Assembly: GCA_015487555.1 (NCBI GenBank)
Contig: WFPK01000024.1
Location: forward strand, 1 to 36,525
Source: Phycisphaerales bacterium
GTDB taxonomy: Bacteria > Planctomycetota > Phycisphaerae > Phycisphaerales > UBA1924
Length of the DNA: 36,525 bases
Direction of reading: 5' to 3'
Shown: positions 4,200 through 30,837 of the stretch, piece after piece
Position numbering within the stretch: the stretch's first letter is position 1
Layout of the letters: each line of letters begins with the position of its first letter
Notes under the pieces: generated by a model
Seen by the model: only the letters and a program-made list of their open reading frames with translations
Told to the model about the DNA's origin: nothing
The model's database searches: none
Made by a program: the position numbers and the translations under genes

Positions 4200-4213
4200 T
4201 CTTCCTCTTCTCA

Positions 4214-4531
4214 TCAAGCCCCCCACTGCATCACCGAAACAACAGCAAGTACGCCTGTCGACCCCAGAAAGATCACGCCGAGCATGCTTTGGATCGTCCT
4301 GGAAATAACCCGATGTGCCCGCGGAAAAACCCGGTCTGCAATACACATCAAAAACACAATCTGGGCGCCGCACAACGCTGCAGCCCCCGCGCTCGTTGCC
4401 AATACCCGATGCCCTAGCACCCCCGCGTGAGGCTCGGCAATCAACCAGACCCCCAACACACCAAGAGACAAGCTCCAAGGCAACGCACTGGCCATCACCA
4501 AAGCCAAACTCATCCATCTACGAGAATACAC
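4214..4531 (-). CDS. small hydrophobic membrane protein of unknown function
   Basis: A 105-residue protein with about three hydrophobic segments: SLALVMASALPWSLSLGVLG, the stretch around VLATSAGAAALCGAQIVFLM, and a C-terminal segment SMLGVIFLGSTGVLAVVSV. Basic residues (RVFPRAHRVISR) sit between the second and third. The frame starts at a GTG (4531); an ATG six codons in, at 4513, is an equally possible start, and neither has a clear Shine-Dalgarno. Its TGA overlaps a possible ATG of the TPR gene (TGATG at 4212-4216), so the two are probably translated from one message. No family recognised. It could be an accessory or anchor for the secreted TPR protein, but that rests only on adjacency. The hydrophobic pattern and coupling argue that this, not the long frame crossing it, is the real gene. 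Confidence 0.6.
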   Translation of the reverse strand: MYSRRWMSLALVMASALPWSLSLGVLGVWLIAEPHAGVLGHRVLATSAGAAALCGAQIVFLMCIADRVFPRAHRVISRTIQSMLGVIFLGSTGVLAVVSVMQWGA

Positions 4532-4664
4532 CCATGCCTCCGATGCTCAAATCCGGGATTCTACACCATCCCATCATAGAGTATTCAGAGCGTCCGCATG
4601 ACCCGATTGCCCAACGATCTCTGCCCGATTCTTCGTCCTTGCCTGCTCTTGCCTTGCCTGCCCT

Positions 4665-6581: not shown

Positions 6582-6880
6582 GGAACTGATCCTCATTGGT
6601 CTCACCACCCGAAGCATACGCCTCGCCAATGGCTCGACTCGATCCTACATGCGTGATGGAAAAGGGTTTGTGAACTGTGAAAAACAGATGCATTCTGAAA
6701 TCGCAGATTTGAAAACGATCCGCGTTTGGAACTATATCAATCGGCCCGCTCTTTGCTGCCCCGCCCCGCTCGCTACCGAGTTCTTTGGCAGCCTCATCGA
6801 ATAAAAAGCAAAAGTCGGGTGGAAAGGAGTCGTTTGGAAGACGAACCAGATCAGGCGCCCGATGCCCGATGCTCGATGCC
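6582..6880. other. intergenic region between the coaE fusion gene and rho
   Basis: About 300 bases without a convincing gene. It must hold the rho leader and promoter, or be a read-through spacer from the upstream fusion gene on the same strand. Read on the minus strand, a TATAGT hexamer preceded by GA lies near 6733-6738, but I see no good -35 at the right distance. A short direct repetition of CCCGATGC/CTCGATGC occurs near 6858-6880. No terminator hairpin with a T-tract was found. Confidence 0.4.
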
Positions 6881-8044
6881 TCAAATCCTTCTGGCCAAAT
6901 CCTTCTGGATTGAAGCGAGCACCCGTGCGACTCGGCCATCGAGCTCATCGGGTAAGCCGATATTGGCTACTACATAATCGGCCCGTTTTCGCTTGTGTTC
7001 AAGTCCGAGCTGCGCTTTTTCTCGTTTATCGAGCTCCTGAGCATCCCACCCACGCGTCGCCAGGACCCGCGCAGCCCGCGTTTCCAAAGGCGTATCCACG
7101 AAAACAATCGCATCGCACTCCGAATCGACCCCGGCTTCAAATAATAACGGAGCGTCAATAATCACCCCCGGAACCCCCTGTTCAATCGCCCGCTCAATCA
7201 GCCCTTGCCTGCGCTGATGGACCAACGGGTGGATCAGCGCTTCGAGTTTCCGCCGTTCGAATGGGCGATCAAACACAATCTGGGCAACCCGCGACCGATC
7301 CACCGACCCATCCGATGCCAGAATATCACGCCCCCACCACTCCACAAGCTGAGCAACCACCGCAGGCTCACGCATAATCTCGCGCACACTCTCGTCCGAA
7401 TCCGAAACCACGCACCCCAGATCGGCAAAGGCCCGCGCCACAGTCGATTTGCCCGATCCAATCCCCCCCACGATTCCGATCACAGGCGTCACTTGTTTCC
7501 CCTGTCCATATGCTGCCATTCGATCCGCCTGCGCCCGAATCGTATCGAGCACCTGCTGGGGATGCTCGACCCCACGCCAGACCAGATCAACCGACCCAGT
7601 GCCTGCCGTCGTGATCCCCAATGACCCGATCCCAAAGAGCCGCTCAGCCGGCGGGCGCACCATCACGATATGCTGAATCCGCCGAAGCGGGATATCGGTG
7701 GTCACACTCCGCAGGATGCCGAACCTGGCGATGATCCGCGCATCGGTCAAGATGTGTCGTCTTGCCCCCCAATCGAGCAATCCAAGCCCCAGCCTCAATC
7801 CAACAATCACCAATGCCCCATTGGCACCCGAAACCACTGCCGGGGACCCCATCGCCATCCCGACCCACCGCATGCCTCCCCACGCGATAAGCCCGACGAC
7901 AATCCACCGCCACATCTGCGTCACCACAAAGGCAATATGAGGGCGGTCATCAATCAGCACCCGCTCACCTGCGGGGATGAAATCCGGGCGAGATTGATGA
8001 TGTGTATTCTTTTGTGTAGCAGGGAGATCGCGGACCATCTTCAT
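6881..8044 (-). CDS. coaE: fusion of membrane-bound bacterial PH domain (bPH2) with dephospho-CoA kinase
   Basis: One uninterrupted frame of 387 residues joins two domains. Residues about 25-180 are a bPH2 (DUF304, YdbS-like) unit: a short beta hairpin ERVLIDDRPH, two hydrophobic segments, then the PH-like part RRHILTDARIIARFGIL and the family-typical LFGIGSLGITTAGTG. Residues about 188-387 are a full dephospho-CoA kinase, the last step of CoA synthesis: P-loop GIVGGIGSGKST near 190-201, the D-S-D segment corresponding to the usual DAD motif, DAPLLFEAG near 298, and a C-terminal ADYVVANIG. CoaE is normally a soluble protein of about 200 residues. Here the kinase would be tethered to the membrane. 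The codon at 8047 is TTG, so the start is the ATG at 8044 or 8038; none has a strong Shine-Dalgarno. Confidence 0.88.
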   Translation of the reverse strand: MKMVRDLPATQKNTHHQSRPDFIPAGERVLIDDRPHIAFVVTQMWRWIVVGLIAWGGMRWVGMAMGSPAVVSGANGALVIVGLRLGLGLLDWGARRHILTDARIIARFGILRSVTTDIPLRRIQHIVMVRPPAERLFGIGSLGITTAGTGSVDLVWRGVEHPQQVLDTIRAQADRMAAYGQGKQVTPVIGIVGGIGSGKSTVARAFADLGCVVSDSDESVREIMREPAVVAQLVEWWGRDILASDGSVDRSRVAQIVFDRPFERRKLEALIHPLVHQRRQGLIERAIEQGVPGVIIDAPLLFEAGVDSECDAIVFVDTPLETRAARVLATRGWDAQELDKREKAQLGLEHKRKRADYVVANIGLPDELDGRVARVLASIQKDLARRI

Positions 8045-8047
8045 CAA

Positions 8048-8496
8048 TCATAGTCACATACCGTTCCTGACCCGTTCAAAGCATGCTTCTTATTATTGAC
8101 TCAAAACCCGGGTTGAAAAAGCATGGTGCCCCTGGCAAACACCACTCCATTTGGCCACGCCCCGGCTCTCATACATTTTTGTCCGAAATTCTTCAAATTT
8201 TGCGAGTTTCCCCTTGAACAGGGAAAGGCTTTGAAGGACACTGGTGCCTTCGAGGGAGGACTCGACCGTTGTAGGCCGAGCCGTGGGGATTCGAGTGAGA
8301 GGACTGCCTGCATCCATTCTGCACAGACAAGGCCGAGCCTTCGAGCGCGTGCTTTCCTGCTTCGGTGTGACCAGTCGTCGCCTTTTTTTGCGTGACTCAT
8401 CCAAGCCCCTGTCTGGAACCATTCAACCGGAACCGGACAACCATCCCAGAGGTTTCGCTTCTACGCACAAAAAGAGAGAAAAGGAGAAAGTAAAGA
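8048..8496. other. 450-bp intergenic region, candidate structured RNA in the middle
   Basis: This lies between the divergent coaE fusion and PEP-CTERM genes. From about 8205 to 8390 it shows several pairing options: TTTCCC/GGGAAA with loop CTTGAACA (8207-8226), ACTCGA pairing with TCGAGT across about 30 bases, AAGGC/GCCTT around a CGA loop, and a long-range match of GGAAAG near 8222 with CTTTCC near 8350. A run of seven T follows at about 8383-8389, but no perfect terminator stem precedes it. The last 30 bases before the PEP-CTERM gene are purine-rich. I cannot assign it to a known RNA family; 6S, SRP, RNase P and tmRNA motifs were looked for and not found. Confidence 0.3.
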
Positions 8497-9315
8497 ATGA
8501 AAAGCACACTCACACTTTCGTTGTCTTGCACACTGCTGGCAACGCTGGCTGGAGCAACCCAAGCAGGCATCCAGGTTGACTACTACCGCACCATTGCACC
8601 AAACGCGTTTGGATCCGTAAACTACGCCCAGATGTGGAGCAATGTCCAAGACTCACTGATCAACAACGGCGGCGCAGACACCGGTTCAGGCGCCAGCGCA
8701 TTCACCAATATCACCTCGGTCAACGGCCAGCAATCATATGTCTCCAGCTTCGAGAACCTCAATGGCGTCGAAGTCGCTGGCGAATATGGCACCCGTCCAT
8801 CATGGGCCTACTTTATCTCCAACGATGATGGCTCGGTCATGGACAACTCCTTGCTTGCTTCAGCAACCAAAAATTATGGCTATTCATGGAATGGAGTAGA
8901 GAGCTCATTCTGGGGCGACATTGATTTCATCCCAGGCGGAAACTTTGACGCCAACCGACTCGTCGGCGTACGAGCAGACGGCTCCATCGGAACCAGCTTG
9001 GCCGATGAGTATATTGCATTCATCGGGCTCTCAGGCAATGCTTGGTGGGCAGAACGCTGGACCGGGACACTCGGTGTCGACGAAGTCTGGACCGGCGACA
9101 CCATGGTCGGCGATGCAGACCGCTTCGACCGTCTCGCAGAGCTTGCAGCTTGGACAGAAGCAAACCAAGACTACTGGGCATTCAGCATCACCATGGACGG
9201 CATCACCTTTGATGCGCCAAACATCAATGTCGTGCCCATACCGCCAGCTGCCTTCGCAGGGCTCGCCATGCTCGGCGGCATCGCAGGTGTCCGCACCATC
9301 CGCAGACGCGCCTAA
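8497..9315 (+). CDS. secreted PEP-CTERM-type protein 1
   Basis: A 272-residue exported protein. Residues 1-23 are a signal peptide (MKSTLTLSLSC, hydrophobic core, cleavage after TQA). The body is rich in aromatic, G, N and D residues, has no recognised domain, and looks like a beta-rich extracellular protein. The last 28 residues are a sorting tail: VVPIPPAAFAGLAMLGG, more hydrophobic residues, then the basic end RTIRRRA. This is the V-P-x-P variant of the PEP-CTERM signal, known in Gram-negatives to be processed by an exosortase; no exosortase is in this window. The leader just upstream is purine-rich (8469-8490, includes AAGGAGAAAG, the likely ribosome site). A strong terminator follows at 9337. 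Two more proteins with nearly the same tail occur at 19401 and 32155. Confidence 0.8.
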   Translation: MKSTLTLSLSCTLLATLAGATQAGIQVDYYRTIAPNAFGSVNYAQMWSNVQDSLINNGGADTGSGASAFTNITSVNGQQSYVSSFENLNGVEVAGEYGTRPSWAYFISNDDGSVMDNSLLASATKNYGYSWNGVESSFWGDIDFIPGGNFDANRLVGVRADGSIGTSLADEYIAFIGLSGNAWWAERWTGTLGVDEVWTGDTMVGDADRFDRLAELAAWTEANQDYWAFSITMDGITFDAPNINVVPIPPAAFAGLAMLGGIAGVRTIRRRA

Positions 9316-9397: not shown

Positions 9398-9976
9398 TCA
9401 CCGTTTAGGAATCGCCGACTGATCCAGCACCGCGATCTGCGGATAATTCCGGTAGTACCCATTATAATCAAGCCCATACCCCACCACGAACTCGTCAGGA
9501 ATCTCGAACCCCACATAATCCACATGCACATCCACGGTTCGATCGGTCTGCTTATCGAGCATCACCCCAAGCCTCAACGACGCCGGGTTCTGCTTGGCGA
9601 TCATTTCCTTGACCAACGCTAAGGTCTGCCCCGAATCCAAAATATCATCGAGCACAATAATGTGTTTCCCCCCCAGATTCGTCGGCAGCTCCGTCGCAAA
9701 GTGCGCCCCCTTCGATCGCACCGACTCGCCGGGATAGCTCGACACAGCCACCAACCCCAATGACAACTTCATCGGCAACTCGCGCACCACATCGGCTACG
9801 AAGATCATCGCTCCGGTCATAATCGGGATGATAATCACCCGATCCTCATCAAGCTCGGTATGCCCGTCCTTGGCCAGATCGGCCTTGAGATCAATGACCA
9901 TCTCGTCAGCAAGCGTTCTCACACGCTCAGCGATCTGATCCCGGGTATAAAGCACGCGTTGGATTTCTGGAAACAT
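9398..9976 (-). CDS. hpt: hypoxanthine phosphoribosyltransferase
   Basis: A 192-residue purine-salvage enzyme that converts hypoxanthine (or guanine) and PRPP to the nucleotide. The PRPP-binding loop is clear: IIVLDDILDSGQTL, matching the family's V-[LIVM]-x-[DE]-D-x-x-D-[ST]-G. Upstream of it are PIMTGAMIFVADVVREL (the 'l.Ga..f..dl.r.l' helix) and the flexible loop around VSSYPGESVRS. After it come the base-recognition parts DYVGFEIPDEFVVGYGLDYNGYYR, here quoted in two pieces in the usual order (VGFEIPDEFVVGYG, then the DYNGYYR end). The frame runs upstream to 10120, but the conserved part begins at the ATG at 9976 (MFPEIQRVL), and the extra 48 residues resemble no part of the family. The gene is convergent with PEP-CTERM gene 1 and divergent from the 827-residue secreted protein. 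Confidence 0.95.
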   Translation of the reverse strand: MFPEIQRVLYTRDQIAERVRTLADEMVIDLKADLAKDGHTELDEDRVIIIPIMTGAMIFVADVVRELPMKLSLGLVAVSSYPGESVRSKGAHFATELPTNLGGKHIIVLDDILDSGQTLALVKEMIAKQNPASLRLGVMLDKQTDRTVDVHVDYVGFEIPDEFVVGYGLDYNGYYRNYPQIAVLDQSAIPKR

Positions 9977-10079
9977 GCGAGGATGATAGGCCCGCACATG
10001 CGTGAGCAACACACGCGCACTTTGTGCGCAATACGCCCCGCTCTTATTACAATTTTGACCAAATCCAAAACATACAGCT

Positions 10080-10107
10080 TTGCACACAATTCCAATTATG
10101 ATATGTT
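10080..10107 (+). promoter_or_regulatory. possible sigma-70-type promoter
   Basis: TTGCAC and TATGTT are separated by 16 bases in an AT-rich patch, about 44 bases before the start of the secreted dockerin-type protein. Matches to the consensus are moderate (4/6 each). Confidence 0.3.
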
Positions 10108-10150
10108 CCTTCAAGGCCAATCTTGTTGTTTTTCAGAAAAGGAGCATAAT

Positions 10151-15527: not shown

Positions 15528-15540
15528 ATCCCCTCCCCCC

Positions 15541-15640
15541 GGGTGCCACGGCTTGATCCGCGTAGCGGACAAGCCGTGTCTTAGATTGCTTAGGTTTCAC
15601 GAAGACACGGCTTGCCGAAGACGGTCAAGCCGTGGCACCC
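15541..15640. repeat. paired palindromic repeat element, copy 2
   Basis: The clearest copy. Left: GGGTGC, stem CACGGCTTG / CAAGCCGTG enclosing TCCGC-GTA-GCGGA, then TCTT. Right: AAGA, stem CACGGCTTG / CAAGCCGTG enclosing CCG-AAGA-CGG, then GCACCC. The spacer between the hairpins is about 20 bases. The ends GGGTGCCAC and GTGGCACCC are exact mirror images. The downstream flank carries CCCATTGCCTATTGCC, which nearly recurs next to copy 3. Confidence 0.9.
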
Positions 15641-15684
15641 GCCCCCCCCATTGCCTATTGCCTACTGCCATTGCCTTCCCCATC

Positions 15685-15700
15685 TGGCACGCCATTTGTG
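15685..15700 (+). promoter_or_regulatory. sigma-54-type promoter of the flgF operon
   Basis: TGGCACGCCATTTGTG fits TGGCACG-N4-TTGC in spacing: GG at 15686-15687, and GT instead of the usual GC ten bases further on. The predicted start of transcription is near 15711, 56 bases before flgF. It shares its core with the sites at 19291 and 20220. Confidence 0.65.
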
Positions 15701-15766
15701 TATCTCCCAGCACGGGTGGCTGCTGTTCACGGATGAACAGGGCCAAGGCCCGAGATTGGACATCGC

Positions 15767-16534
15767 ATGGACTACGGCTTACAAATCTCCGCTTCAGGCG
15801 CATTGGCAGGGATTCATCGGCAAGATGCGCTCACAAACAACCTCGCAAACGCCAACACCACCGGATTCAAACCCATCCTCACAGGCACCATGCACCGGTT
15901 GGCTGCCCGCCAAGAAGACAATCTCCCCTACCTCGCCTCCGATACACTCCTCGAAAAACTCGGAGGAGGCGTGCTTTCTGCGCAAACACGCATCAACTTT
16001 GCGCAAGGCACACTCGAAACCTCAGACTCGCAATGGGATATGGCCATCCAAGGTGACGGGTTCTTCGTCGTCGGTGATCCCTCCAACCCATCGCTCACAC
16101 GCGATGGACGATTCGCAGTCAACTCCGATGGCCAGCTCGTCATGGCGATCACAGGCGTACCCGTCCTCTCTACAGGCAACTCCCCCATCCACATCGACAT
16201 CACCCAAGGCGATATCCTCGTCCAAAAAGACGGAACCATCCTCCAAGGCGGCGCACCAATCGACCAGATCCAAATCAGCGATGTCCCCGATCGCTCGATC
16301 CTCACCAAACTCGGTGCAGGACTCTTTGGATCACCATCAGGTGCCCCGCTCTCGCTGATCGAAGCGTCGGGCTCGCTGAACCAATACATGCTCGAAGGCT
16401 CAGGCGTCAACGAGATCGACGCACTCATGCAAATCCAGAACGCATCACGCTCAGCCAAAAACAATATCGGGATGATCGACCTGCAAAACAGGCTCATCGA
16501 ACGAGCAATCAATACTTTCGGACGAATCGGCTAA
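15767..16534 (+). CDS. flgF: flagellar basal-body rod protein FlgF
   Basis: A 255-residue proximal rod subunit exported by the flagellar type III system. The N-terminus LQISASGALAGIHRQDALTN and NLANANTTGFKP is the rod-protein signature (family consensus 's...aSGm.a.q..ldv.aNNLANvnTtGFK'). The middle has the FlgE/F/G core (MAIQGDGFFVVGD, LTRDGRFAVNSDGQLV). The C-terminus ends in a helix typical of the family (LIERAINTFGRIG). It is shorter and less conserved than the next gene, and its position before flgG supports FlgF. The ATG at 15767 lacks a strong Shine-Dalgarno. It is the first gene after a sigma-54-type promoter and is followed 37 bases later by flgG. Confidence 0.88.
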   Translation: MDYGLQISASGALAGIHRQDALTNNLANANTTGFKPILTGTMHRLAARQEDNLPYLASDTLLEKLGGGVLSAQTRINFAQGTLETSDSQWDMAIQGDGFFVVGDPSNPSLTRDGRFAVNSDGQLVMAITGVPVLSTGNSPIHIDITQGDILVQKDGTILQGGAPIDQIQISDVPDRSILTKLGAGLFGSPSGAPLSLIEASGSLNQYMLEGSGVNEIDALMQIQNASRSAKNNIGMIDLQNRLIERAINTFGRIG

Positions 16535-16571
16535 GCCGACCATAAACAACGACTAAACAAAGGTTTACACC

Positions 16572-17381
16572 ATGGCCGTACTTGCAATGCAATCCGCAGC
16601 ATCCGGACTCCGGGCCCTCGACACCCGCCTCGATGTCATCGCCAACAACCTCGCCAATGTCAACACCGAAGGCTTCAAGTCCTCAAGAGTCAACTTCGAA
16701 GACCTCCTCTATATCGAACGAGCCCAGCCCGGAACCGAAAACAACAACGGCGACCAACGCCCCACCGGGCTCTATGTCGGGCTCGGGGTCCGCGTCAGTG
16801 GCACACAACAAGACTTCACCCAAGGCCCACCCATCCCCGGTACCTCGCCACTCGATATGATGATCGAAGGGCGCGGGTTCTTCAAAGTCGCGGTCGAAAC
16901 AGACCTGGGCGAGGGCGGATTCGCCTACACACGCATGGGCAACTTCGTCCTCAACTCCAACGGCACCATCGTCCTGGCCAACTCCGATGGACGAATCCTC
17001 GATCCCGAAATCACCATCCCACCGACCGCAGAAAATATCTCGGTCGATGCATCAGGGCGAATCTTTGCATCGCTCCCGGGCACTGCTGTTCCTACTGAAG
17101 TCGGGCAAATCCAACTCTCGGTCTTCATCAATCCCGCCGGGCTCACACAAGTCGGCACCAACCTCTGGACCGAAAGCGCCGCATCAGGACCACCCATCGA
17201 AGGCATCCCCGGGACAGACAACTTCGGTACCGTTCGAGGAGGAATGCTCGAAGGGTCCAATGTCGATCCCTCGCGAGAACTCATCGAACTCATCCGCACC
17301 CAGCGGGCCTTCGAGATGAACTCACAGGCGATCCGGGCAGCCGACGAAACCCTCCAGTCCGTCGCCCAGCTCCGTCGATAA
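16572..17381 (+). CDS. flgG: flagellar distal rod protein FlgG
   Basis: A 269-residue distal rod protein; E. coli FlgG has 260 residues. The signature is complete: LDTRLDVIANNLANVNTEGF near the N-terminus, FEDLLYIERAQPG, the GLYVGLGVRVSGTQQDFTQG segment (FlgG-type 'iG.Gvrv..t...f.qG'), MMIEGRGFFKV, TRMGNFVLNSNGTIV, and the C-terminal RELIELIRTQRAFEMNSQAI followed by a short helical end. Rod subunits polymerise in the periplasm between the MS ring and the hook. The gene sits between flgF and flgA with short spacings, as in many Gram-negative bacteria. Confidence 0.96.
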   Translation: MAVLAMQSAASGLRALDTRLDVIANNLANVNTEGFKSSRVNFEDLLYIERAQPGTENNNGDQRPTGLYVGLGVRVSGTQQDFTQGPPIPGTSPLDMMIEGRGFFKVAVETDLGEGGFAYTRMGNFVLNSNGTIVLANSDGRILDPEITIPPTAENISVDASGRIFASLPGTAVPTEVGQIQLSVFINPAGLTQVGTNLWTESAASGPPIEGIPGTDNFGTVRGGMLEGSNVDPSRELIELIRTQRAFEMNSQAIRAADETLQSVAQLRR

Positions 17382-17407
17382 CCCAAGCCCATAAAAGAAC
17401 AAGCATC

Positions 17408-18499
17408 ATGCCCAATCGCCTCTCCACCCTGATCGCACACCTGGCAGTCCTGCTTATGCTCGGGCTGTGCCCAGCGCAGAGTCTGGCAGATGAGCACAGC
17501 GATACCAGCGCAATCACCACCGTATCACTCCATTCGACTGTTCGGCTCACCTCCGATCATGCCGCGATTACCCTCGGCGATCTCGCCACCATCTCAGGCC
17601 CACAAACCAATGTCCTCAAAGCACTTCGAGTCCAGACCGCTCATCCCGTCGCTGCCCAGACCTGGTCGTCGATCAAAGCCAGCACCCTCCGCGATCTGAT
17701 CGCCCAATCGCCCGGAATCCGCCAAGGCTCGATCATCCTCGATGGGAACGAAGTCGCGATCACCCGCCGAGTGCATGCCCAGGCATCATCGAACCCGACC
17801 AAAGCTGCCCCGATCCCCCCCGAACCCTCCGGGCCAATCCTGCGCGATCAGATCGAACGCTGGGTCCATGCCCGCCCCTGGCTCAAGAGCGATGCCGATT
17901 CAACCCGGATCATCTTCAGCCAACGCAAGCGCGACCAGGACCTGCTCAACACCCCAATCGAGGGGAAAACTGTGATCCTCAACGAGATCGGTCGGTCCAA
18001 GACGATCAGCTGTGAGATTGTTATCTATGAGAACGAGCAGCTCATCGCTGAGACATCCATCCGATTCGATGTCCAGGTCAAGCGCCTCGTCCGCGTATCG
18101 ACCGCCCAGATCCGTCGAAACGAACTGATCAATGCAGAGCACACGGTGCTCGAAACCCGGTGGATCTCGCCGATGGTTCCGATCGCCGATCCTGAGCAAT
18201 CACTCGGACAGGCCTGCAAAAAAACAATCGACCCGGGCTCGATCCTGCTCGTTTCCATGATCGAACAGCCCATCCTCGTCAAACGCAACCGGATCGTCTC
18301 GGCGCGGAGCCTCTCAGGATCGGTTTCGGTGACCATGAGCGTCCGGGCACTCAACAACGGCAGACTCGGCGAGCTCATCGAACTCGAATCACGCGATGGC
18401 AAAAACCGATTCACCGCCCGCGTCGCAGGCCCAAACCGAGTCGTCATCGTCAAAAACCCCCAAAAAACCAGCCAATCCATCCCCACCCAAGGATCATAG
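17408..18499 (+). CDS. flgA: flagellar P-ring assembly chaperone FlgA
   Basis: A 363-residue periplasmic protein with a signal peptide (LIAHLAVLLMLGLCPAQSLA, cleavage before DEHSD). The C-terminal part has the SAF-like FlgA domain: VSTAQIRRNELINAEHTVLE, then a DPEQSLGQACKKTIDPGSIL segment corresponding to the usual 'G..ar..i..G..l' motif, and the final barrel (MSVRALNNGRLGELIELESR). FlgA escorts FlgI during P-ring assembly. It is longer than the E. coli protein (219 residues) because of an extra N-terminal domain, a layout seen in several phyla. Its TAG stop is directly followed by the ATG of flgH, which implies coupled translation. Confidence 0.9.
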   Translation: MPNRLSTLIAHLAVLLMLGLCPAQSLADEHSDTSAITTVSLHSTVRLTSDHAAITLGDLATISGPQTNVLKALRVQTAHPVAAQTWSSIKASTLRDLIAQSPGIRQGSIILDGNEVAITRRVHAQASSNPTKAAPIPPEPSGPILRDQIERWVHARPWLKSDADSTRIIFSQRKRDQDLLNTPIEGKTVILNEIGRSKTISCEIVIYENEQLIAETSIRFDVQVKRLVRVSTAQIRRNELINAEHTVLETRWISPMVPIADPEQSLGQACKKTIDPGSILLVSMIEQPILVKRNRIVSARSLSGSVSVTMSVRALNNGRLGELIELESRDGKNRFTARVAGPNRVVIVKNPQKTSQSIPTQGS

Positions 18500-19213
18500 A
18501 TGTTCAAATCAATACGCCAATCAATCTCAAAATCATCCTTGCAAACTGCCCTGGCGACACTTGCGCTCCTCACCGGACACCACGCCCACGCCCAGAGCTT
18601 GTACCTCACCCAGGCTGAGCAAGAGACCTCCCCCGATGCTTCCCAACCCGTCATCTTGCTCGAAGAGGTCTCCCTTCACTTCATCTCCGCGCCCGAAACC
18701 CGGATCATCAAAAAACACGACATCATCACCATCATCATCGACGAAAACTCTTCCCAGACGAGCTCGCAATCGCTCAATACCAAAAAAGAATCCAAATCCC
18801 AAGCCAGCATTGACGCCCTGGTCGATCTCATGCAGCTCCTCGAACTCCGAGTCCGCTCGGGCGATACCGCCAACACCGATCTGATCGACCTGACCAACAA
18901 AAGACGATTCAAAGGCGAAGGCGACTACGAACGCGAAGACCGATTCTCCGCACGCATCACCGCCAAAGTCCTCGAAGTCAAACCCAACGGCACACTGGTT
19001 CTCGAAGCAACCAAAAGAATCGCCAAAGACCAGGAAATCTCGGTTCTTGTCCTCTCCGGACTCGCCCGCGAAGAAGATGTCACCGCCCAGAACACGATCC
19101 TCTCGAGCCAGCTCGCCGACCTCAACATCATCCTTGAAAACGAAGGCAGCCTCAAGGATGTCGCCGAGAAGGGACTCATCACCCGCGTGCTCGACTCCAT
19201 TTTCGCATTCTGA
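18500..19213 (+). CDS. flgH: flagellar L-ring protein FlgH
   Basis: A 237-residue outer-membrane ring protein. The signal peptide ends in HHAHAQSLYL. Family hallmarks are IIKKHDIITIIIDENSSQTS (the 'vGDivtV.v.e...a' motif), FKGEGDYEREDRFSARITAK (matching 'f.G.G.t.....l...iTa.V'), VLEVKPNGTLVLEATKRI (matching 'VLpNGnLvi.G...i') and the last strand GLITRVLDSIF. Unlike E. coli FlgH, there is no lipobox cysteine, and I see no cysteine in the whole protein, so it should be cut by the ordinary signal peptidase and not lipidated. The start directly abuts the flgA stop. A PEP-CTERM gene with its own promoter follows before flgI. Confidence 0.92.
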   Translation: MFKSIRQSISKSSLQTALATLALLTGHHAHAQSLYLTQAEQETSPDASQPVILLEEVSLHFISAPETRIIKKHDIITIIIDENSSQTSSQSLNTKKESKSQASIDALVDLMQLLELRVRSGDTANTDLIDLTNKRRFKGEGDYEREDRFSARITAKVLEVKPNGTLVLEATKRIAKDQEISVLVLSGLAREEDVTAQNTILSSQLADLNIILENEGSLKDVAEKGLITRVLDSIFAF

Positions 19214-19240
19214 GCCATCCACAAGCCAATTCCCTCAGAA

Positions 19241-19274
19241 TTGACTTGTATCACCCATCAGGCTCCGATATAAT
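19241..19274 (+). promoter_or_regulatory. possible sigma-70-type promoter before PEP-CTERM gene 2
   Basis: A perfect TATAAT at 19269-19274. The -35 could be TTGTAT (19245, spacer 18) or TTGACT (19241, spacer 22, too long). It lies just upstream of a better sigma-54-type match, so either or both may be used. Confidence 0.35.
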
Positions 19275-19290
19275 CCGTGCTCCTGTACAT

Positions 19291-19306
19291 GGGCACCCCA
19301 TTTGCA
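19291..19306 (+). promoter_or_regulatory. sigma-54-type promoter of PEP-CTERM gene 2
   Basis: GGGCACCCCATTTGCA has GG at 19292-19293 and GC at 19304-19305, exactly ten bases apart, with CAC and TTTGCA in consensus positions. Only the first T and the seventh base differ from TGGCACG-N4-TTGCA. Predicted start near 19317, giving a leader of about 84 bases. Confidence 0.65.
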
Positions 19307-19352
19307 AGTGTTGTGTGTGCGCTCGGGGGACCCCTCTGTTGGGCGATGAATC

Positions 19353-19394
19353 AAGAGAGAAGAGAGAAGAGAAAAAAGAGAAGAGAGAGAGAAA
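19353..19394 (+). promoter_or_regulatory. 42-base all-purine leader segment
   Basis: An unbroken purine run of GAGA and GAAGA units ends seven bases before the start of PEP-CTERM gene 2. It offers many weak Shine-Dalgarno-like registers and would be unstructured. A shorter purine run stands at the same place before PEP-CTERM gene 1 (8469-8490). Confidence 0.6.
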
Positions 19395-19400
19395 CCTTCC

Positions 19401-20084
19401 ATGAATATTTCCCTGATTTCGTTGGCGGCATGCGCCGCTTTGGCGGGCAATGCAGCTGCAGGTACCGTGCTCTATACACAGGACTTCGAGACTCCTGAAA
19501 GTGGATACACCACAACCAACCAGTACATTGTAACCCCCCACTACGCCCACTTCATCTATACCGATAGCTCGACACTCGCAGGCTCAGGCTACACCAATAC
19601 AACCGGCTCCTTCATTTCTTCCATGAATACGGACTGGTTCCTCGGACACGCAACACTGGGAACGCCGACACTCACCACCGATTCATTCGACATCACCGGC
19701 GAAACCAACCTCCAGTTCGCCATCGACCTCGCAACCAGAAGTGCCTCCCCATTGTGGATCGCCACCAGCCAAGTCACTTTCGAGTACCGGGTGGATGGGG
19801 GCGCTTGGATCGACATCTTCGCTGCCGACTCGGATGGCGTGAACTTTGGAACCCCCACAGTCAATGGCGTCGCGATCACCAACGCCTTTACAACTTTCAC
19901 CGCAGATATCTCCGGACTCAACGGCACGAACATGGACATCCGAATCGTCTGGGCCAACCTGAGCACAATCGAAAGCCTCGGAATCGACAACATGACCGTC
20001 TCGGTCATTCCACTTCCACCGGCAGCCTTGGCTGGACTGGGCATGCTCGCCGGGTTGGGTGCATACCGTCGGCTCCGTCGATAA
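19401..20084 (+). CDS. secreted PEP-CTERM-type protein 2, inside the flagellar locus
   Basis: A 227-residue exported protein. The signal peptide is MNISLISLAACAALAGNAAA, cleaved before GTVLYTQDFE. The body looks like a beta-sandwich of the type found in many PEP-CTERM proteins: TQDFETPESGY at the start, FEYRVDGGAWIDIFAADSDG in the middle, and GIDNMTVSVIPLP leading into the tail. The tail is PLPPAALAGLGMLAGLGAY with basic end RRLRR. It lies between flgH and flgI on the same strand, but with its own sigma-54-type promoter, long leader and terminator, so it is a separate transcript in a flagellar regulon. A role as a sheath, adhesin or other flagellum-linked surface protein is inference. No similar gene is a standard member of flagellar operons. 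Confidence 0.82.
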   Translation: MNISLISLAACAALAGNAAAGTVLYTQDFETPESGYTTTNQYIVTPHYAHFIYTDSSTLAGSGYTNTTGSFISSMNTDWFLGHATLGTPTLTTDSFDITGETNLQFAIDLATRSASPLWIATSQVTFEYRVDGGAWIDIFAADSDGVNFGTPTVNGVAITNAFTTFTADISGLNGTNMDIRIVWANLSTIESLGIDNMTVSVIPLPPAALAGLGMLAGLGAYRRLRR

Positions 20085-20089
20085 ACACA

Positions 20090-20147
20090 CTGCTCCCAAC
20101 ACGAGCTCCCAATGCGAGCTCCCAATGCGATCTCCCAATGCGATCTC
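20090..20147 (+). repeat. 13-bp tandem repeat, about four and a half copies
   Basis: Unit GAGCTCCCAATGC: a degenerate first copy (CTGCTCCCAACAC), two exact copies, one with GATC for GAGC, and a partial copy GATCTC. It sits between the stop of PEP-CTERM gene 2 and its terminator. Confidence 0.85.
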
Positions 20148-20148
20148 A

Positions 20149-20173
20149 AGGCACCCAGATGGGTGCTTTTTTT
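20149..20173 (+). terminator. intrinsic terminator after PEP-CTERM gene 2
   Basis: Stem GCACCC / GGGTGC with loop AGAT, followed by seven T. It separates this transcript from flgI, which has its own promoter about 50 bases further on. Confidence 0.88.
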
Positions 20174-20219
20174 CGAGCTTTGCACATTCTCCCACCCCCT
20201 GATCCATCCTCGCCTGGGT

Positions 20220-20235
20220 TGGCACGCCCTTCGCG
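20220..20235 (+). promoter_or_regulatory. sigma-54-type promoter of the flgI operon
   Basis: TGGCACGCCCTTCGCG has GG at 20221-20222 and GC at 20233-20234, ten bases apart, and matches TGGCACG fully at the -24 side. The predicted start near 20246 leaves a 16-base leader carrying GGAAGGA just before the flgI ATG. Confidence 0.7.
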
Positions 20236-20261
20236 TAAGTGCCCGTGGAAGGAATCTATTT

Positions 20262-21323
20262 ATGAGACGATGGATCGTCATCTTTGTCGTGCTGCTTGGG
20301 CTTTGTACTTTCGAGCTCTCTGCGGAACAAACCCTGCGGGAAATCTCGCGGGTCAAAGGGCAGGGCGCTTCGGTTGTCCAAGGGCTCGGGCTCGTCGTTG
20401 GACTCAACGGCACGGGCGACTCGGGCTCCGAGCTTGCCATGGCGCGCCCGCTGGCTGAGGCGCTCAAAAAGCTCGGTAATCCGGTGAGTATCGACGATCT
20501 CTCTTCGTCGAAATCGGCTGCCCTGGTGATGGTCACTGCCCGAGTTCCACGCGAGGGTGCCAAGACTGACGACCAGTTTGATGTCACCATCTCGGTCATC
20601 AACTCGGCCAAAAGTCTCGAAGGCGGCGTCCTGATGGTCTCGCCGATGATTGCCAAACCAGGATCCCCAGTCTATGCCTTTGCCCAAGGGCTCCTCTCGA
20701 TCCCCGACGAGGAAACCCCCACCGTTGCTCGGATCACCAACGGAGCGCAGATGGTGCGCGATATCAACACCACCCCGAGCATCGCAGGTTCGTTCGATCT
20801 GATCATCGACTCGAACTTCTCGAGCTGGGGCGCAGCTTCAACCATCGCATCGGAGATCAACCAGCAATACCTCCTCACCGCGACAAGGCTCAACCAGGCG
20901 ATCGCAACCCCCCTCGACGCACGAACCATCCGCGTGCGCGTGCCTATCAATGAACGCGAAGACCCCGCTTCATTCTTCGGCGACATCATGAACACCGACA
21001 TCTCGAGCGCACTTCGTAAACTCCCCGCCAAGGTGGTCTGTGATACACGCGCCGGGATCATCGTCATCACCGGAAATGTTCAGGTCTCCCGGGCATTCAT
21101 TTCCTTGCCCAATATGAGCATCTCCACCACCGCCCCGCCTGTGAGTGAGCTGGGCACCGCTGACCCCCTCAACGAACCAGCACCTGAGACCACCGGGCTC
21201 GGAGACCTGATCGCAGCTTTCGACCAGCTCGATATCCCGGTCAAGGAACAGATCAGCATTCTCCAAAAGCTCCATCAAACAGGCAAACTCCATGCCCGCC
21301 TGATCATCGACGGGCAGGAATAA
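20262..21323 (+). CDS. flgI: flagellar P-ring protein FlgI
   Basis: A 353-residue periplasmic ring protein; the usual length is about 365. The signal peptide MRRWIVIFVVLLGLCTFELS is cleaved near SAEQ. Signatures: REISRVKGQG, then LGLVVGLNGTGDSG (the family's 'L.GyGLVvGL.GTGDs'), VMVTARVPREGAKTDDQFDV (matching 'V.vta.lPpf...G...dv.vss'), the GGVLMVSPMIAKPGSPVYAF region, and ARITNGAQMVRDI. The last part (QLDIPVKEQISILQKLHQTG) matches the family's 'l.a.gv.p.d.i.ilq.l...GaL.A.l'. The frame extends back to 20112, but the ATG at 20262 has GGAAGGA before it and starts the signal peptide. It opens the second flagellar operon (flgI to flgL). Confidence 0.95.
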   Translation: MRRWIVIFVVLLGLCTFELSAEQTLREISRVKGQGASVVQGLGLVVGLNGTGDSGSELAMARPLAEALKKLGNPVSIDDLSSSKSAALVMVTARVPREGAKTDDQFDVTISVINSAKSLEGGVLMVSPMIAKPGSPVYAFAQGLLSIPDEETPTVARITNGAQMVRDINTTPSIAGSFDLIIDSNFSSWGAASTIASEINQQYLLTATRLNQAIATPLDARTIRVRVPINEREDPASFFGDIMNTDISSALRKLPAKVVCDTRAGIIVITGNVQVSRAFISLPNMSISTTAPPVSELGTADPLNEPAPETTGLGDLIAAFDQLDIPVKEQISILQKLHQTGKLHARLIIDGQE

Positions 21324-26354: not shown

Positions 26355-26804
26355 ATGGAAGTGCGGACCACACGATTTGGTGTAATCGACATCGCGGAGG
26401 ACCGCGTGATTACATTCCCCAACGGGTTGCTTGGATTTGGCGACAGAATCACATTCTGTCTGCTTCAGCCTGGTGACGATGCATGTTTTTTCTGGCTCCA
26501 GAGTGTCGATGATCCTGATCTCGCCTTCGTTGTCACAGACCCTACATTCTTCGAGCAGGATTTCTCCGTGCCCATCCGCCCAGAGCAGATGGAATCGTTG
26601 AAGATCAGCAAGCTCGAAGATGCGCAGGTCTTTGTGATTGTGAACAAGATCGGCGATCAGCTCACCGGCAACTTCCAGGGGCCTTTGATTATCAACACAC
26701 TCACCAAGGTGGGCGAGCAGATGGTTCTGGCGGATAAACGCTGGACCACTCGTCACCCACTGATGCGTGTGGCATCGAACTCAACGCAGACCGCCTCGGC
26801 GTAA
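26355..26804 (+). CDS. fliW: flagellar assembly factor FliW
   Basis: A 149-residue protein of the usual FliW length. Signatures: TTRFGVIDIAEDRVITFPNG (matching 't..fG.i.i.e..ii.Fp.GL.Gf'), LLGFGDRITFCLL, FFWLQSVDDPDLAFVVTDP (matching 'f..LqS.ed..laF.v..p') and VNKIGDQLTGNFQGPLIIN, the family's 'lTaNl.aPivin' motif. FliW binds CsrA and prevents it from blocking flagellin translation; when flagellin accumulates it captures FliW instead. The gene neighbours here are exactly csrA and flagellin. The frame begins with TTG at 26343, but the ATG at 26355 with GGAG eight bases before it is the better start. Confidence 0.95.
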   Translation: MEVRTTRFGVIDIAEDRVITFPNGLLGFGDRITFCLLQPGDDACFFWLQSVDDPDLAFVVTDPTFFEQDFSVPIRPEQMESLKISKLEDAQVFVIVNKIGDQLTGNFQGPLIINTLTKVGEQMVLADKRWTTRHPLMRVASNSTQTASA

Positions 26805-26972: not shown

Positions 26973-27338
26973 ATGCTTGTGCTCTCAAGGCAGCGTGACG
27001 AAACAATCATGATCGGCGATGAGATCGAAATCTCTATCGTTGATATCCGGGGGGACAAGGTCCGCCTGGGAATCAACGCGCCGACGAGGATCGCGGTGCA
27101 CCGCAAAGAAGTGTACGACGCGATCCGACGCGAGAATACGCAGGCGGCCAAGCTCGGGACAACCGACCTTGACTCGCTCGCACAAACCATCAAACCAGGC
27201 CCGGCCCGGCGCGCAGTGCGCCAAGACGCCAAGCCACCAGCCATTCAATCTCCCGCGGCTTCGCTCGGAGCGACCACGGTTCGTCCATTTACATCATCAG
27301 AGTCATCATCACCGTCTCAGGATAAAAACAGCGCTTAA
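26973..27338 (+). CDS. csrA: carbon storage regulator CsrA with long C-terminal extension
   Basis: A 121-residue version of a protein that usually has 60-75. Residues 1-60 are a complete Csr[41 protein letters not shown] and [11 protein letters not shown]. This includes the N-terminal strand L-V-L-S-R and the VHR element that form the RNA-binding faces of the dimer. The remaining 60 residues are rich in P, A, S and T and probably disordered ([20 protein letters not shown] at the start). In Gram-positive CsrA a C-terminal extension helps bind FliW, so part of the tail may do that here. The start ATG at 26973 follows AAGGAGTGAACGC; an in-frame extension to 26928 is not conserved CsrA sequence. 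Flagellin 1 begins 55 bases downstream, probably on the same transcript. Confidence 0.95.
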
Positions 27339-27374: not shown

Positions 27375-27392
27375 GCAATCACGGAGGATTGC
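27375..27392 (+). promoter_or_regulatory. CsrA-type hairpin over the ribosome site of flagellin 1
   Basis: A perfect 6-bp stem GCAATC / GATTGC presents the hexaloop ACGGAG, which fits the ANGGAN loop of high-affinity CsrA sites. The loop and the first stem base contain the Shine-Dalgarno GGAGG, and the ATG of flagellin 1 follows two bases after the hairpin. CsrA binding here would block translation. Confidence 0.75.
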
Positions 27393-27393
27393 C

Positions 27394-28944
27394 ATGACCA
27401 GAATCAACACAAACATCCCGAGTATGATCGCACAGCAACGGTTGAATCGTTCTGGACTCGATCTGCAAACCCGCCTCGAACGATTGTCAACCGGGCTTCG
27501 TATCAACCGAGGCAAGGACGACCCCGCCGGGCTGATTATATCAGAACGGCTGGGCACCGATATCTCGAGCATCCAGCAGGCAATCAAGAACGGCGAACGG
27601 GCCAGTGCCGTCATCGCGACAACCGAAGGCTCGCTCACCGAAATCACCGATCTGCTCAACTCGATCAAGGCACTCGCCGTCGAGGCGGCCAATACCGGGG
27701 CACTCTCGGATGAGGAGCGCGAAGCCAACCAGCTTCAAATCAACTCCGCCATCGCCTCGATCACCAGAATCTCCAACACCGCATCCTTCGGCGGGCTCAA
27801 ACTCCTCGATGGATCACTCGACTACATCACCAGCGGGATCAGTGCAACGGAAATCTCCAGCGCCAATATCACCGCAGCAAGCTTTATCAGCTCGACCACA
27901 ATCAGCGTTGATGTTGATGTGCTCTCGTCGGCGCAAAAGGGCAACCTCTACCTCAGTGGCGACAACAGCGGCGCTGGAGGTGCCGATGGTATCATCTTGT
28001 CGAGTACCACCATCCAAATCCGAGGGCCAGAAGGTGTGCGCGAACTCTTGCTCACATCAGGACAGACATTCCAATCGGTCGTCAACTCCGTCAATAGCCT
28101 GACCGCTGTCACCGGGGTCGAAGCATCACTCATCAATGGCGATGCCAACTCCGGAATCGTCTTTAGCTCTTCCGAGTATGGATCAAACGCCTTTGTCAGT
28201 GTTGAACGCATTGACGAACCGGCATCGGGAGGCAACTTCAACCTCTTCATGCTCGATGGCAACGCCGAAATCCCCGCGGGGGGCGTCCCATGGGGAGAAG
28301 CAAGCCTGACGCCATCTGATCGTGATGAAGGGGCCAATGTCACCGCACTCATCAACGGCATCCTCGCCAACGGCGATGGACTTGAAATCTCGATCAACTC
28401 GCCCACCTTGGGCATGGAACTGCTTCTCAATGAAGACTTTGCGACCGATCCGACACTGACCTCATCCACATTTGCCATCACCGGTGGCGGTGCACTCTTC
28501 CAGCTTGGTCCCGATATCACCGCGCTCCAGCAGACCAACATCGGTATCCAATCAACCTCGGCTGAGAGCTTGGGCGGGGTCTTGGTCGATGGCGGGCTTG
28601 AGTACCTCTCCTCCTTGACCACCGGCAATGTCAACTCCCTCGATGCTGCCCAAGGGCGACAAGATTTCTCGGTGCTTTCAGATATTGTGGACAAGGCGAT
28701 TGACGATGTTTCGATCCTGCGTGGTCGATTGGGTGCCTTCGAGCGAAATGTGCTCGATACCAACCGCCGATCGCTCCAATCTGCATTCGAGAACCTGACC
28801 GCAAGCCGATCGGTGATCCGTGATGCAGACTTTGCAGTCGAGACCAGTTTGCTGACAAGGGCGCAAATCTTGCAGAGTGCTGGCACAAGTGTGCTCTCAC
28901 TGGCCAACCAGCAATCTCAGCAAGTGCTCCAGCTCCTAGGCTGA
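27394..28944 (+). CDS. fliC: flagellin 1
   Basis: A 516-residue filament protein. Residues 1-145 are the flagellin N-terminal D0/D1 domain: MTRINTNIPSMIAQQRLNRS, RLERLSTGLRINRGKDDPAG, then EREANQLQINSAIASITRIS. The last 90 residues are the C-terminal domain (RGRLGAFERNVLDTNRRSLQ, FAVETSLLTRAQILQSAG, SLANQQSQQVLQLLG). The central 280 residues are variable beta-rich D2/D3-like sequence that forms the filament surface. It differs clearly from flagellin 2 in the middle but shares the ends. Flagellin is exported through the hook and polymerises under FliD, which is not in this window. A CsrA-type hairpin covers its ribosome site, and a terminator lies at 29001. Confidence 0.96.
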   Translation: MTRINTNIPSMIAQQRLNRSGLDLQTRLERLSTGLRINRGKDDPAGLIISERLGTDISSIQQAIKNGERASAVIATTEGSLTEITDLLNSIKALAVEAANTGALSDEEREANQLQINSAIASITRISNTASFGGLKLLDGSLDYITSGISATEISSANITAASFISSTTISVDVDVLSSAQKGNLYLSGDNSGAGGADGIILSSTTIQIRGPEGVRELLLTSGQTFQSVVNSVNSLTAVTGVEASLINGDANSGIVFSSSEYGSNAFVSVERIDEPASGGNFNLFMLDGNAEIPAGGVPWGEASLTPSDRDEGANVTALINGILANGDGLEISINSPTLGMELLLNEDFATDPTLTSSTFAITGGGALFQLGPDITALQQTNIGIQSTSAESLGGVLVDGGLEYLSSLTTGNVNSLDAAQGRQDFSVLSDIVDKAIDDVSILRGRLGAFERNVLDTNRRSLQSAFENLTASRSVIRDADFAVETSLLTRAQILQSAGTSVLSLANQQSQQVLQLLG

Positions 28945-29281: not shown

Positions 29282-29293
29282 AACACGGAGGTT
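29282..29293 (+). promoter_or_regulatory. CsrA-type site over the ribosome site of flagellin 2
   Basis: Loop ACGGAG closed by AAC / GTT, extendable past one A-G mismatch by two more pairs. The loop is identical to that of flagellin 1 although the stem differs, and again contains the Shine-Dalgarno GGAGG, ten bases before the ATG. Confidence 0.6.
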
Positions 29294-29301
29294 GTCAGCA
29301 A

Positions 29302-30837
29302 ATGAGTCGCATTAACACCAATGTATCGTCCCTGACCGCACAGCGCGTGCTGGGTCAGAATAACCAATCACTCGGAACTTCACTCGAACGCCTTTCGACT
29401 GGTCTGCGGATCAGCCGCGGTAAAGATGATCCTGCGGGCCTGATCGCCAGTGAGAACCTGCGATCAGAAAAAGCTGCGATCGGTGCTGCGATCAGCAACT
29501 CCCAGCGTGCCGATCAGGTCGTCAACATTGCTGAAGGTGGTCTTCAGGAAATCTCGTCGCTCCTCACCGAGCTTCAGGGTCTCTTGACCACATCGGCAAA
29601 CGGTGCCGGTTTGGCCGAGTCGGAAAAGGAAGCGAACCAGCTTCAGATCGACTCGATCCTCCAGACCATCGACCGCGTCGCGGGTGCAACTTCGTTCCAG
29701 GGCACCAAGTTGCTCAACGGCAACTTCGACTACCAAGTCAACGCCGTCAACGCTGGCGTCACCGACATCGAGGTGCGCGGTGCCAAGTTCAATGGCGCAA
29801 CGCAGGTCGTCGATACCATCGTCACCGCTTCGGCCCAGAAGGCAGGCTACTACCTGTCGATCGGTACCTCTGGCGGCATTGATCTCTCAGAATCAGGCAA
29901 CCAGTTTACCTTCGAGATTTCTGGTTCGCTGGGCAACCGTGAGCTCCAGTTCGATTCAGGTGCAACCGTGATCAATATGGCAGCGGCAATCAACGCTGTC
30001 TCGGATGTGACCGGTGTTGAAGCAGTCGCATCGGGCACAGGCATCATGCTCAGCTCCGCCGAGTTCGGGTCCAACGAGTTTGTCGGAATCAAGATCATTG
30101 ATGACGCAAGCATCATGACCGTCCAGACTGGTGCCGCGATCGTCGATATGACCGCAGATGACTTTGATACCCCAGATGCAAGCAGCACCACGGACTTTGA
30201 TGCCGATGCTGCAAGCAACGGGTTGCGTGATGTCGGGCAAGACATTGCAGGCACCATCAACGGGTTGCTCGCAACCGGTCGGGGCAAGACCCTCTCGGTC
30301 AACTCGGACTTCCTCGATGTGAAGTTCAGCACGACTGATACAGCTGCACAGACCCTCGGTGCAATCGGTGGTACAGCAGGCGCATTCACCATCACTGGTG
30401 GCGGTGCTGACTTCCAGCTCGCAGCCGATGTGAACATCGCCGGTAAGGTCTCGATCGGTATCGGTGATATCTCCTCACGCAAGCTGGGCAACTCAACGCT
30501 CGGGTTCCTCGACGATCTCGCGTCGGGCAAGGCATTCAATGTGGTTGATGGCGAAAACATCGACACCGCCCAGGACATCGTTTCTGCTGCGATCGACAAG
30601 GTTTCGTCCACGCGTGGTCGCCTTGGTGCGTTCCAGAAGAATGTGGTCGGCGCAACCATCCGTTCGCTCGGCGTTGCACTTGAGAACACCACCGCTGCCG
30701 AGTCTGTCATCCGTGACACCGACTTTGCTGCCGAAACCGCGTCGCTGACCCGAAGCCAGATTCTGGTGCAGGCATCGACCAACATCCTCTCGATTGCGAA
30801 CTCGCAGCCTCAGCAGGTCCTCGCCCTCCTCGGCTAA
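29302..30837 (+). CDS. fliC: flagellin 2
   Basis: A 511-residue filament protein. N-terminal D0/D1: MSRINTNVSSLTAQRVLGQN, TSLERLSTGLRISRGKDDPA, and KEANQLQIDSILQTIDRVAG. C-terminal domain: RGRLGAFQKNVVGATIRSLG, DTDFAAETASLTRSQILVQA, LSIANSQPQQVLALLG. The central part is variable and only loosely like flagellin 1. The frame starts upstream at a TTG (29224), but the conserved start MSRINTN at 29302 follows GGAGGTTGTCAGC. Its third codon positions are less extreme in GC than the neighbours and it uses GGT and GTT more often, as highly expressed genes tend to do, so this is probably the major filament protein. It has its own leader with CsrA-type sites and its own terminator. Confidence 0.96.
   Translation: MSRINTNVSSLTAQRVLGQNNQSLGTSLERLSTGLRISRGKDDPAGLIASENLRSEKAAIGAAISNSQRADQVVNIAEGGLQEISSLLTELQGLLTTSANGAGLAESEKEANQLQIDSILQTIDRVAGATSFQGTKLLNGNFDYQVNAVNAGVTDIEVRGAKFNGATQVVDTIVTASAQKAGYYLSIGTSGGIDLSESGNQFTFEISGSLGNRELQFDSGATVINMAAAINAVSDVTGVEAVASGTGIMLSSAEFGSNEFVGIKIIDDASIMTVQTGAAIVDMTADDFDTPDASSTTDFDADAASNGLRDVGQDIAGTINGLLATGRGKTLSVNSDFLDVKFSTTDTAAQTLGAIGGTAGAFTITGGGADFQLAADVNIAGKVSIGIGDISSRKLGNSTLGFLDDLASGKAFNVVDGENIDTAQDIVSAAIDKVSSTRGRLGAFQKNVVGATIRSLGVALENTTAAESVIRDTDFAAETASLTRSQILVQASTNILSIANSQPQQVLALLG

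Follow-up and report, generated by a model that had tools for sequence, protein, structure and literature searches.

Predicted sigma-54 promoter sites of flgF and flgI, and the place of a PEP-CTERM gene, in a flagellar locus of a Phycisphaerales bacterium

In a flagellar locus of a Phycisphaerales bacterium, a gene for a secreted protein of the PEP-CTERM type lies between flgH and flgI, which raises the question of whether this gene belongs to the flagellar programme or is a neighbor of independent origin and control. The locus lies on a stretch of 36,525 nucleotides (nt) (WFPK01000024.1; hereafter, the window), which makes up an entire contig (C24) in a draft genome of 2.64 Mb. From 15.7 kb, the window encodes flgF-flgG-flgA-flgH, the secreted protein of 227 amino acids, flgI, flgJ, flgN, flgK, flgL, fliW, csrA, and two flagellins (flgG, flgJ, flgN, flgK, flgL, and the flagellins were assigned by sequence and gene order). 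A preliminary description of this DNA had proposed a shared sigma-54-type promoter for flgF, the PEP-CTERM gene, and flgI. Conservation within the genus sustains the proposal for flgF and flgI; for the PEP-CTERM gene it fails, as the site is broken in the sister species. We regard it as likely that the locus is a stage-controlled flagellar cluster, in which sigma-54 acts at flgF and flgI, CsrA and FliW provide further gating, and the PEP-CTERM gene is independent.

Sigma-54 sites and a candidate activator

The three sites are as follows.

15685..15700, + strand: predicted sigma-54 promoter of flgF (TGGCACGCCATTTGTG; -12 dinucleotide GT), conserved in the genus; exact-pattern matches only at flgF and flgI
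19291..19306, + strand: sigma-54-like sequence upstream of the PEP-CTERM gene (GGGCACCCCATTTGCA), probably a chance match
20220..20235, + strand: predicted sigma-54 promoter of flgI (TGGCACGCCCTTCGCG), present in 21/21 genus genomes

All three were found where the preliminary description had placed them, and each 16-mer matches TGGCACG-N4-TTGCW with two mismatches. Such matches are not in excess: with at most two mismatches allowed, the window holds 6 (vs. 6.9 expected in shuffles), and both strands of the 2.64-Mb genome hold 303 (vs. 297 for the reversed pattern). Because these counts are near chance in both window and genome, counting alone decides nothing. Conservation does split the sites, as those at 15685 and 20220 are kept across the genus, whereas that at 19291 is not.

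Specifically, the flgI site has the form TGGCAC[AG]C-NN-TTCGCG and ends 26–38 nt before the start codon; it is present in each of the 21 genus genomes that were examined (several of which are incomplete), including eight in which no flgH was found beside flgI. The flgF site, TGGCAC[AG]C-NN-T[TG]TGTG, begins 82–87 nt 5' of flgF in every genus locus that includes this gene, with similar sequences in further leaders. The joint exact pattern TGGCACRCNNTTYGYG has one or two matches in each of 13 genus genomes, all of them upstream of flgF or flgI, and the reversed pattern has a single match among the same 13 genomes. Other members of the family often retain the site at flgF, flgI, or both. Within the TGGCAC-N5-TTGC context, the GG-N10-GC core is full at flgI; at flgF, the GG is intact and the -12 element (15698–15699) is GT, a single deviation that agrees with what the preliminary description had implied. 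This dinucleotide is GT in every genus member and GC or GA in the other genera of the family. That GT is rarer than GC at this element counts against the assignment of the flgF site.

RpoN is encoded in the genome, as are five proteins with a strong sigma-54 activator domain, three of which carry GAFTGA. One of these three, a response regulator, has a histidine kinase gene before it and flgC, fliE, fliF, and fliG after it.

Contig C91 (genome G000), 1894–8973: genes for a histidine kinase and a GAFTGA response regulator, a candidate pair of the FlgSR/FlrBC type, with flgC-fliE-fliF-fliG immediately downstream

Orthologs of the response regulator (76–91 per cent) occur in nearly all genus genomes. 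Taken together, the genus-wide conservation of the two sites and the presence of RpoN and its activators strongly support sigma-54 control of the flgF and flgI operons, as had been proposed. By analogy, the kinase/response-regulator pair probably acts on both: FlgSR, FlrBC, and FleSR of Campylobacter, Vibrio, and Pseudomonas require FliF and FliG before sigma-54-dependent rod and hook genes are expressed (PMC7064773). The present locus resembles those systems in having RpoN, a GAFTGA response regulator and kinase beside MS-ring and rotor genes, and sigma-54 promoters at rod and ring genes. It differs in its phylum (Planctomycetota, Phycisphaerales), in an exact motif confined to flgF and flgI, in the GT at the flgF -12 element, and in that activation is predicted. 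RNA polymerase with RpoN, probably activated by this pair, would start 5' of flgF and continue into flgG, flgA, and flgH, and a second start 5' of flgI would serve flgJ and probably genes beyond it.

Although this kind of system is already known from other phyla, the two-site flagellar motif extends throughout the genus, in a class of Planctomycetota that has received little study, and it comes with a good candidate activator. A survey of sigma-54 regulons (PMC12316311) finds P-ring biosynthesis (COG1261) enriched in a number of classes, Planctomycetia among them, and reports sigma-54 promoters for csrA in Pirellula; unlike the present analysis, it does not name flgF or flgI, and it mentions Phycisphaerae once. 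In a limited literature search, we found no prior description for this class of the genus-wide flgF/flgI motif pair, the candidate activator, or the flgF leader hairpin described below.

Leader hairpins and CsrA

A hairpin that was not part of the preliminary description stands between flgF and its promoter; related loops occur at the ribosome sites of the flagellins.

15718..15744, + strand: flgF leader hairpin with loop ACGGAU (A-N-GGA) and a covarying stem in 17 leaders; proposed CsrA operator
27375..27396, + strand: flagellin 1 leader hairpin GCAATC-ACGGAG-GATTGC (6-bp stem, hexaloop) beside the ATG; proposed CsrA operator over the ribosome site
29283..29304, + strand: flagellin 2 leader ACACGGAGGTTGTC, with A-N-GGA at the ribosome site; conserved in the second flagellin leaders of relatives

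Across 17 flgF leaders, the hexaloop reads A-N-GGA-[TG], with the A and the GGA invariant in all 17, and the stem changes in a paired manner: C-G becomes G-C at the base of the inner stem and U-A becomes C-G inside it, and in the outer stem G-C is replaced by A-U, U-G, or C-G. There are 20 cells changed on both sides (vs. 5.9 in shuffles), and the covariation score is 0.410 (vs. 0.158 in shuffles and 0.03–0.149 in slid controls). Shuffle tests run high when the sequences are related, and we accordingly rely more on the slid control and the invariant loop. The core of the hairpin in the window, UUCACGGAUGAA, is identical to that of the hcnA Shine–Dalgarno RNA GGGCUUCACGGAUGAAGCCC used for the study of RsmE binding (PMC11882435, PMC13287468). 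This 14-base word also occurs elsewhere in some genomes and is not unique to flgF. An Rfam search of the window gave no match. From these features, the flgF hairpin is probably a CsrA operator, and the leader would represent a specific RNA element that can be tested by gel shift.

Two observations weigh against CsrA binding at the leaders. The first is that the flgI leader, which has a conserved Shine–Dalgarno region (GGAAGGANTC), contains no convincing covarying hairpin; a candidate there was rejected, as it pairs over a short length only, does not hold in some species, and has a z of about +1 when folded as a single sequence. The second is that a palindrome 3' of a promoter can be an activator site. 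The flgF palindrome could accordingly be a DNA site for the flagellar sigma-54 activator, downstream of the transcription start, rather than an RNA element. Its arms, GTYC-N6-GRAC, do stand 3' of the promoter and 5' of the gene, the window has a single GTTC-N6-GAAC, and paired changes arise from DNA palindromes as well as from RNA stems. Yet the asymmetric A-N-GGA loop, which is conserved at least as well as the arms, is invariant in 17/17 leaders, as a CsrA loop would be; no counterpart is seen close to flgI, where the same activator should be needed; and the same loop is carried by flagellin leaders that lack sigma-54 sites. We therefore consider a DNA site unlikely, and favor the CsrA operator.

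In the flagellin 1 leader, GCAATC-ACGGAG-GATTGC-C stands directly before the ATG and is identical in every genus leader recovered. The flagellin 2 leader has no stable fold on its own, and neither flagellin leader has a sigma-54 site with at most two mismatches. We propose CsrA control for the flagellins as for flgF. The CsrA of Campylobacter binds A-N-GGA hairpin loops in flaA, binds the flgI leader as well, and is antagonized by FliW (PMC4894983). The present locus is alike in carrying csrA and fliW among its flagellar genes and in having A-N-GGA hairpin loops at flagellin ribosome sites; unlike in Campylobacter, the strongest covarying hairpin is on flgF, about 25 nt 5' of the start, and binding is predicted. 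CsrA would bind the A-N-GGA hairpins of the flgF and flagellin messages and hold their translation until released by FliW. We lean, by a modest measure, toward double gating in the genus, in which sigma-54 and the kinase/activator pair would turn on flgF and flgI, and CsrA and FliW would control how flgF and the flagellins are translated; the rod, and not the filament alone, would then be under the switch.

The PEP-CTERM gene between flgH and flgI

Three features belong to the gene itself.

19246..19274, + strand: sigma-70-like promoter TTGTAT-17-TATAAT of the PEP-CTERM gene, kept in the sister species (G016)
19401..20084, + strand: PEP-CTERM-type secreted protein of 227 amino acids, possibly a jelly-roll beta-sandwich (tail motif, homologs, low-confidence model)
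20148..20173, + strand: intrinsic terminator of the PEP-CTERM gene (-16.4 kcal/mol, z -2.9, T-run), with counterparts in G016 and another relative (G005)

The product of 19401–20084 has an N-terminal signal and the tail IPLPPAALAGLGMLAGLGAYRRLRR. It shows the features of PEP-CTERM proteins: a signal peptide, a short P-x-P motif, a hydrophobic stretch, an Arg-rich end, and exosortase in the genome. No NCBIfam PEP-CTERM model matched the protein, whose motif is IPLPP and not PEP; the assignment follows from the tail motif, from the presence of about 40 tails like it in relatives, and from two exosortases (PF09721) in the genome, which could sort the protein. Its structure model is of low confidence (predicted local distance difference test score of 62); its fold weakly matches those of Eph ligand-binding, MAM, reelin, and carbohydrate-binding domains, and five of seven homologs have a weak Pfam hint to the reelin repeat. 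The model thus gives only a hint of a jelly-roll beta-sandwich, a fold that suggests a surface or matrix protein. The terminator-like T-run hairpin downstream, although not listed by a simple scanner, has its counterparts in the two relatives.

A search of the flgH–flgI gap in relatives indicates that the gene is not co-conserved with the flagellar locus. In the sister species, the same gene (77 per cent identical) occupies the same gap, but five full-length homologs (42–47 per cent identical; one each in G002, G013, and G018 and two in G010) lie outside flgH–flgI. Among the 13 of 21 genus genomes in which flgH stands beside flgI, two gaps hold this gene, one (G005) an unrelated PEP-CTERM gene, one (G011) an hpt-like gene, and nine are empty. 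The G005 gene (10247–10909 of L066, reverse-strand reading) has its own terminator and shares only the tail with the gene of the window. Most simply, the gap can be read as a place between two transcription units where insertions are tolerated. Its occupation by two different PEP-CTERM genes is a small oddity, for which the abundance of such genes is the only explanation we offer. The hpt-like gene of G011 has a homolog in the window itself, at 9398–10120 on the minus strand.

Upstream of the gene, the DNA of the sister species aligns with that of the window: the AATTGACTTGTATC block is identical and is followed by TTGTAT-17-TACAAT. At the core of GGGCACCCCATTTGCA, which in the window has GG, GC, and their spacing intact 95 nt 5' of the start, GG corresponds to GC, and GC to GA, in the sister species. 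The GG-N10-GC site is thus lost, and the -35/-10 kept, in the only other species with the gene in place, which contradicts the proposal that sigma-54 drives it. Two of the outcomes that the preliminary description had named as refuting are observed: the loss of this site, and the absence of the gene from the flgH–flgI gap in 19 of 21 genus genomes. No sigma-54 site with at most three mismatches lies upstream of the five other full-length homologs. Among about 41 PEP-CTERM-type genes from the host and its relatives (collected by tail similarity, not exhaustively), only that of the window has a site with at most two mismatches; a general sigma-54 regulon of PEP-CTERM genes was therefore rejected. 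By the genome rate, the chance of such a word is about 1 per cent per 190-base gap, so that one in a 36-kb window with about 25 upstream regions is unremarkable. GGGCACCCCATTTGCA is probably a chance match, and the gene most likely uses the sigma-70-like TATAAT promoter, even though a consensus scanner scored TTGTAT-17-TATAAT below its threshold.

Against a chance match, GGGCACCCCATTTGCA may have been lost in the sister species rather than never present. Its full core and spacing in this genome would also fit a working sigma-54 promoter gained in this species only, by a recent change in the 5' untranslated region that added dual control; as one such word would be no surprise among the upstream regions of the window, we find this gain improbable. 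Least probable, and in our view very unlikely, is that sigma-54 at 19291–19306 places the gene in the flagellar programme as a sheath or flagellar-pole adhesin, as the preliminary description had suggested: a two-mismatch site, a place in the flagellar cluster of two sister species, the other PEP-CTERM gene in the G005 gap, and the RpoN-dependent PEP-CTERM gene pepA of Aquincola (PMC9850573) speak for it, but the site is not kept beside the only other ortholog in place, the gap lacks the gene in 19 of 21 genus genomes that keep flagellar genes, the homologs elsewhere have no sites, the leader has no A-N-GGA hairpin, nothing links the protein to the flagellum, and in Aquincola PepA affected flocculation, not swarming. 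The two cases are alike in a PEP-CTERM gene with an RpoN-like sequence nearby, and differ in that here the site is neither conserved nor, at two mismatches or fewer, found at any other sampled PEP-CTERM gene.

The PEP-CTERM gene is most likely a recent bystander, unrelated to the flagellar programme. It would form a one-gene unit, with a sigma-70-like promoter and a terminator of its own, that was inserted between flgH and flgI in the ancestor of the two sister species. A tempting link between exosortase-sorted surface proteins and flagella is thereby removed as unsupported.

Neighboring genes and repeats

Genes assigned in the locus, in which fliW and csrA are neighbors, are listed below.

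15767..16534, + strand: flgF (distal rod), TIGR02490, 3e-38
16572..17381, + strand: flgG (distal rod), assigned by sequence; order and sequence kept across relatives
17408..18499, + strand: flgA (P-ring chaperone), TIGR03170, 1e-22
18500..19213, + strand: flgH (L ring), PF02107, 2e-35
20262..21323, + strand: flgI (P ring), PF02119, 7e-58
26355..26804, + strand: fliW (CsrA antagonist family), PF02623, 3.5e-33
26973..27338, + strand: csrA, PF02599, 8e-23

G039, the genome of a relative in a different family of this order, has about 21 copies (L146, L157–L160, and other places) of a repeat that contains a perfect sigma-54-like core, TTGGCACGCATTTTGCGTTGCACATTTTT; no common gene was seen downstream of these copies.

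A long, near-perfect hairpin at 15540–15641 (outer arms of 17 nt, nested arms of 13 nt; -71 kcal/mol, z -8.6) ends 44 nt 5' of the flgF promoter. Judged by its sequence and distribution, it is a dispersed element resembling repetitive extragenic palindromes or miniature inverted-repeat transposable elements (REP/MITE-like): its arm word, GGGTGCCACGGCTTG, is absent from some genus members and occurs 14 times in the host genome and up to 29 times in others.

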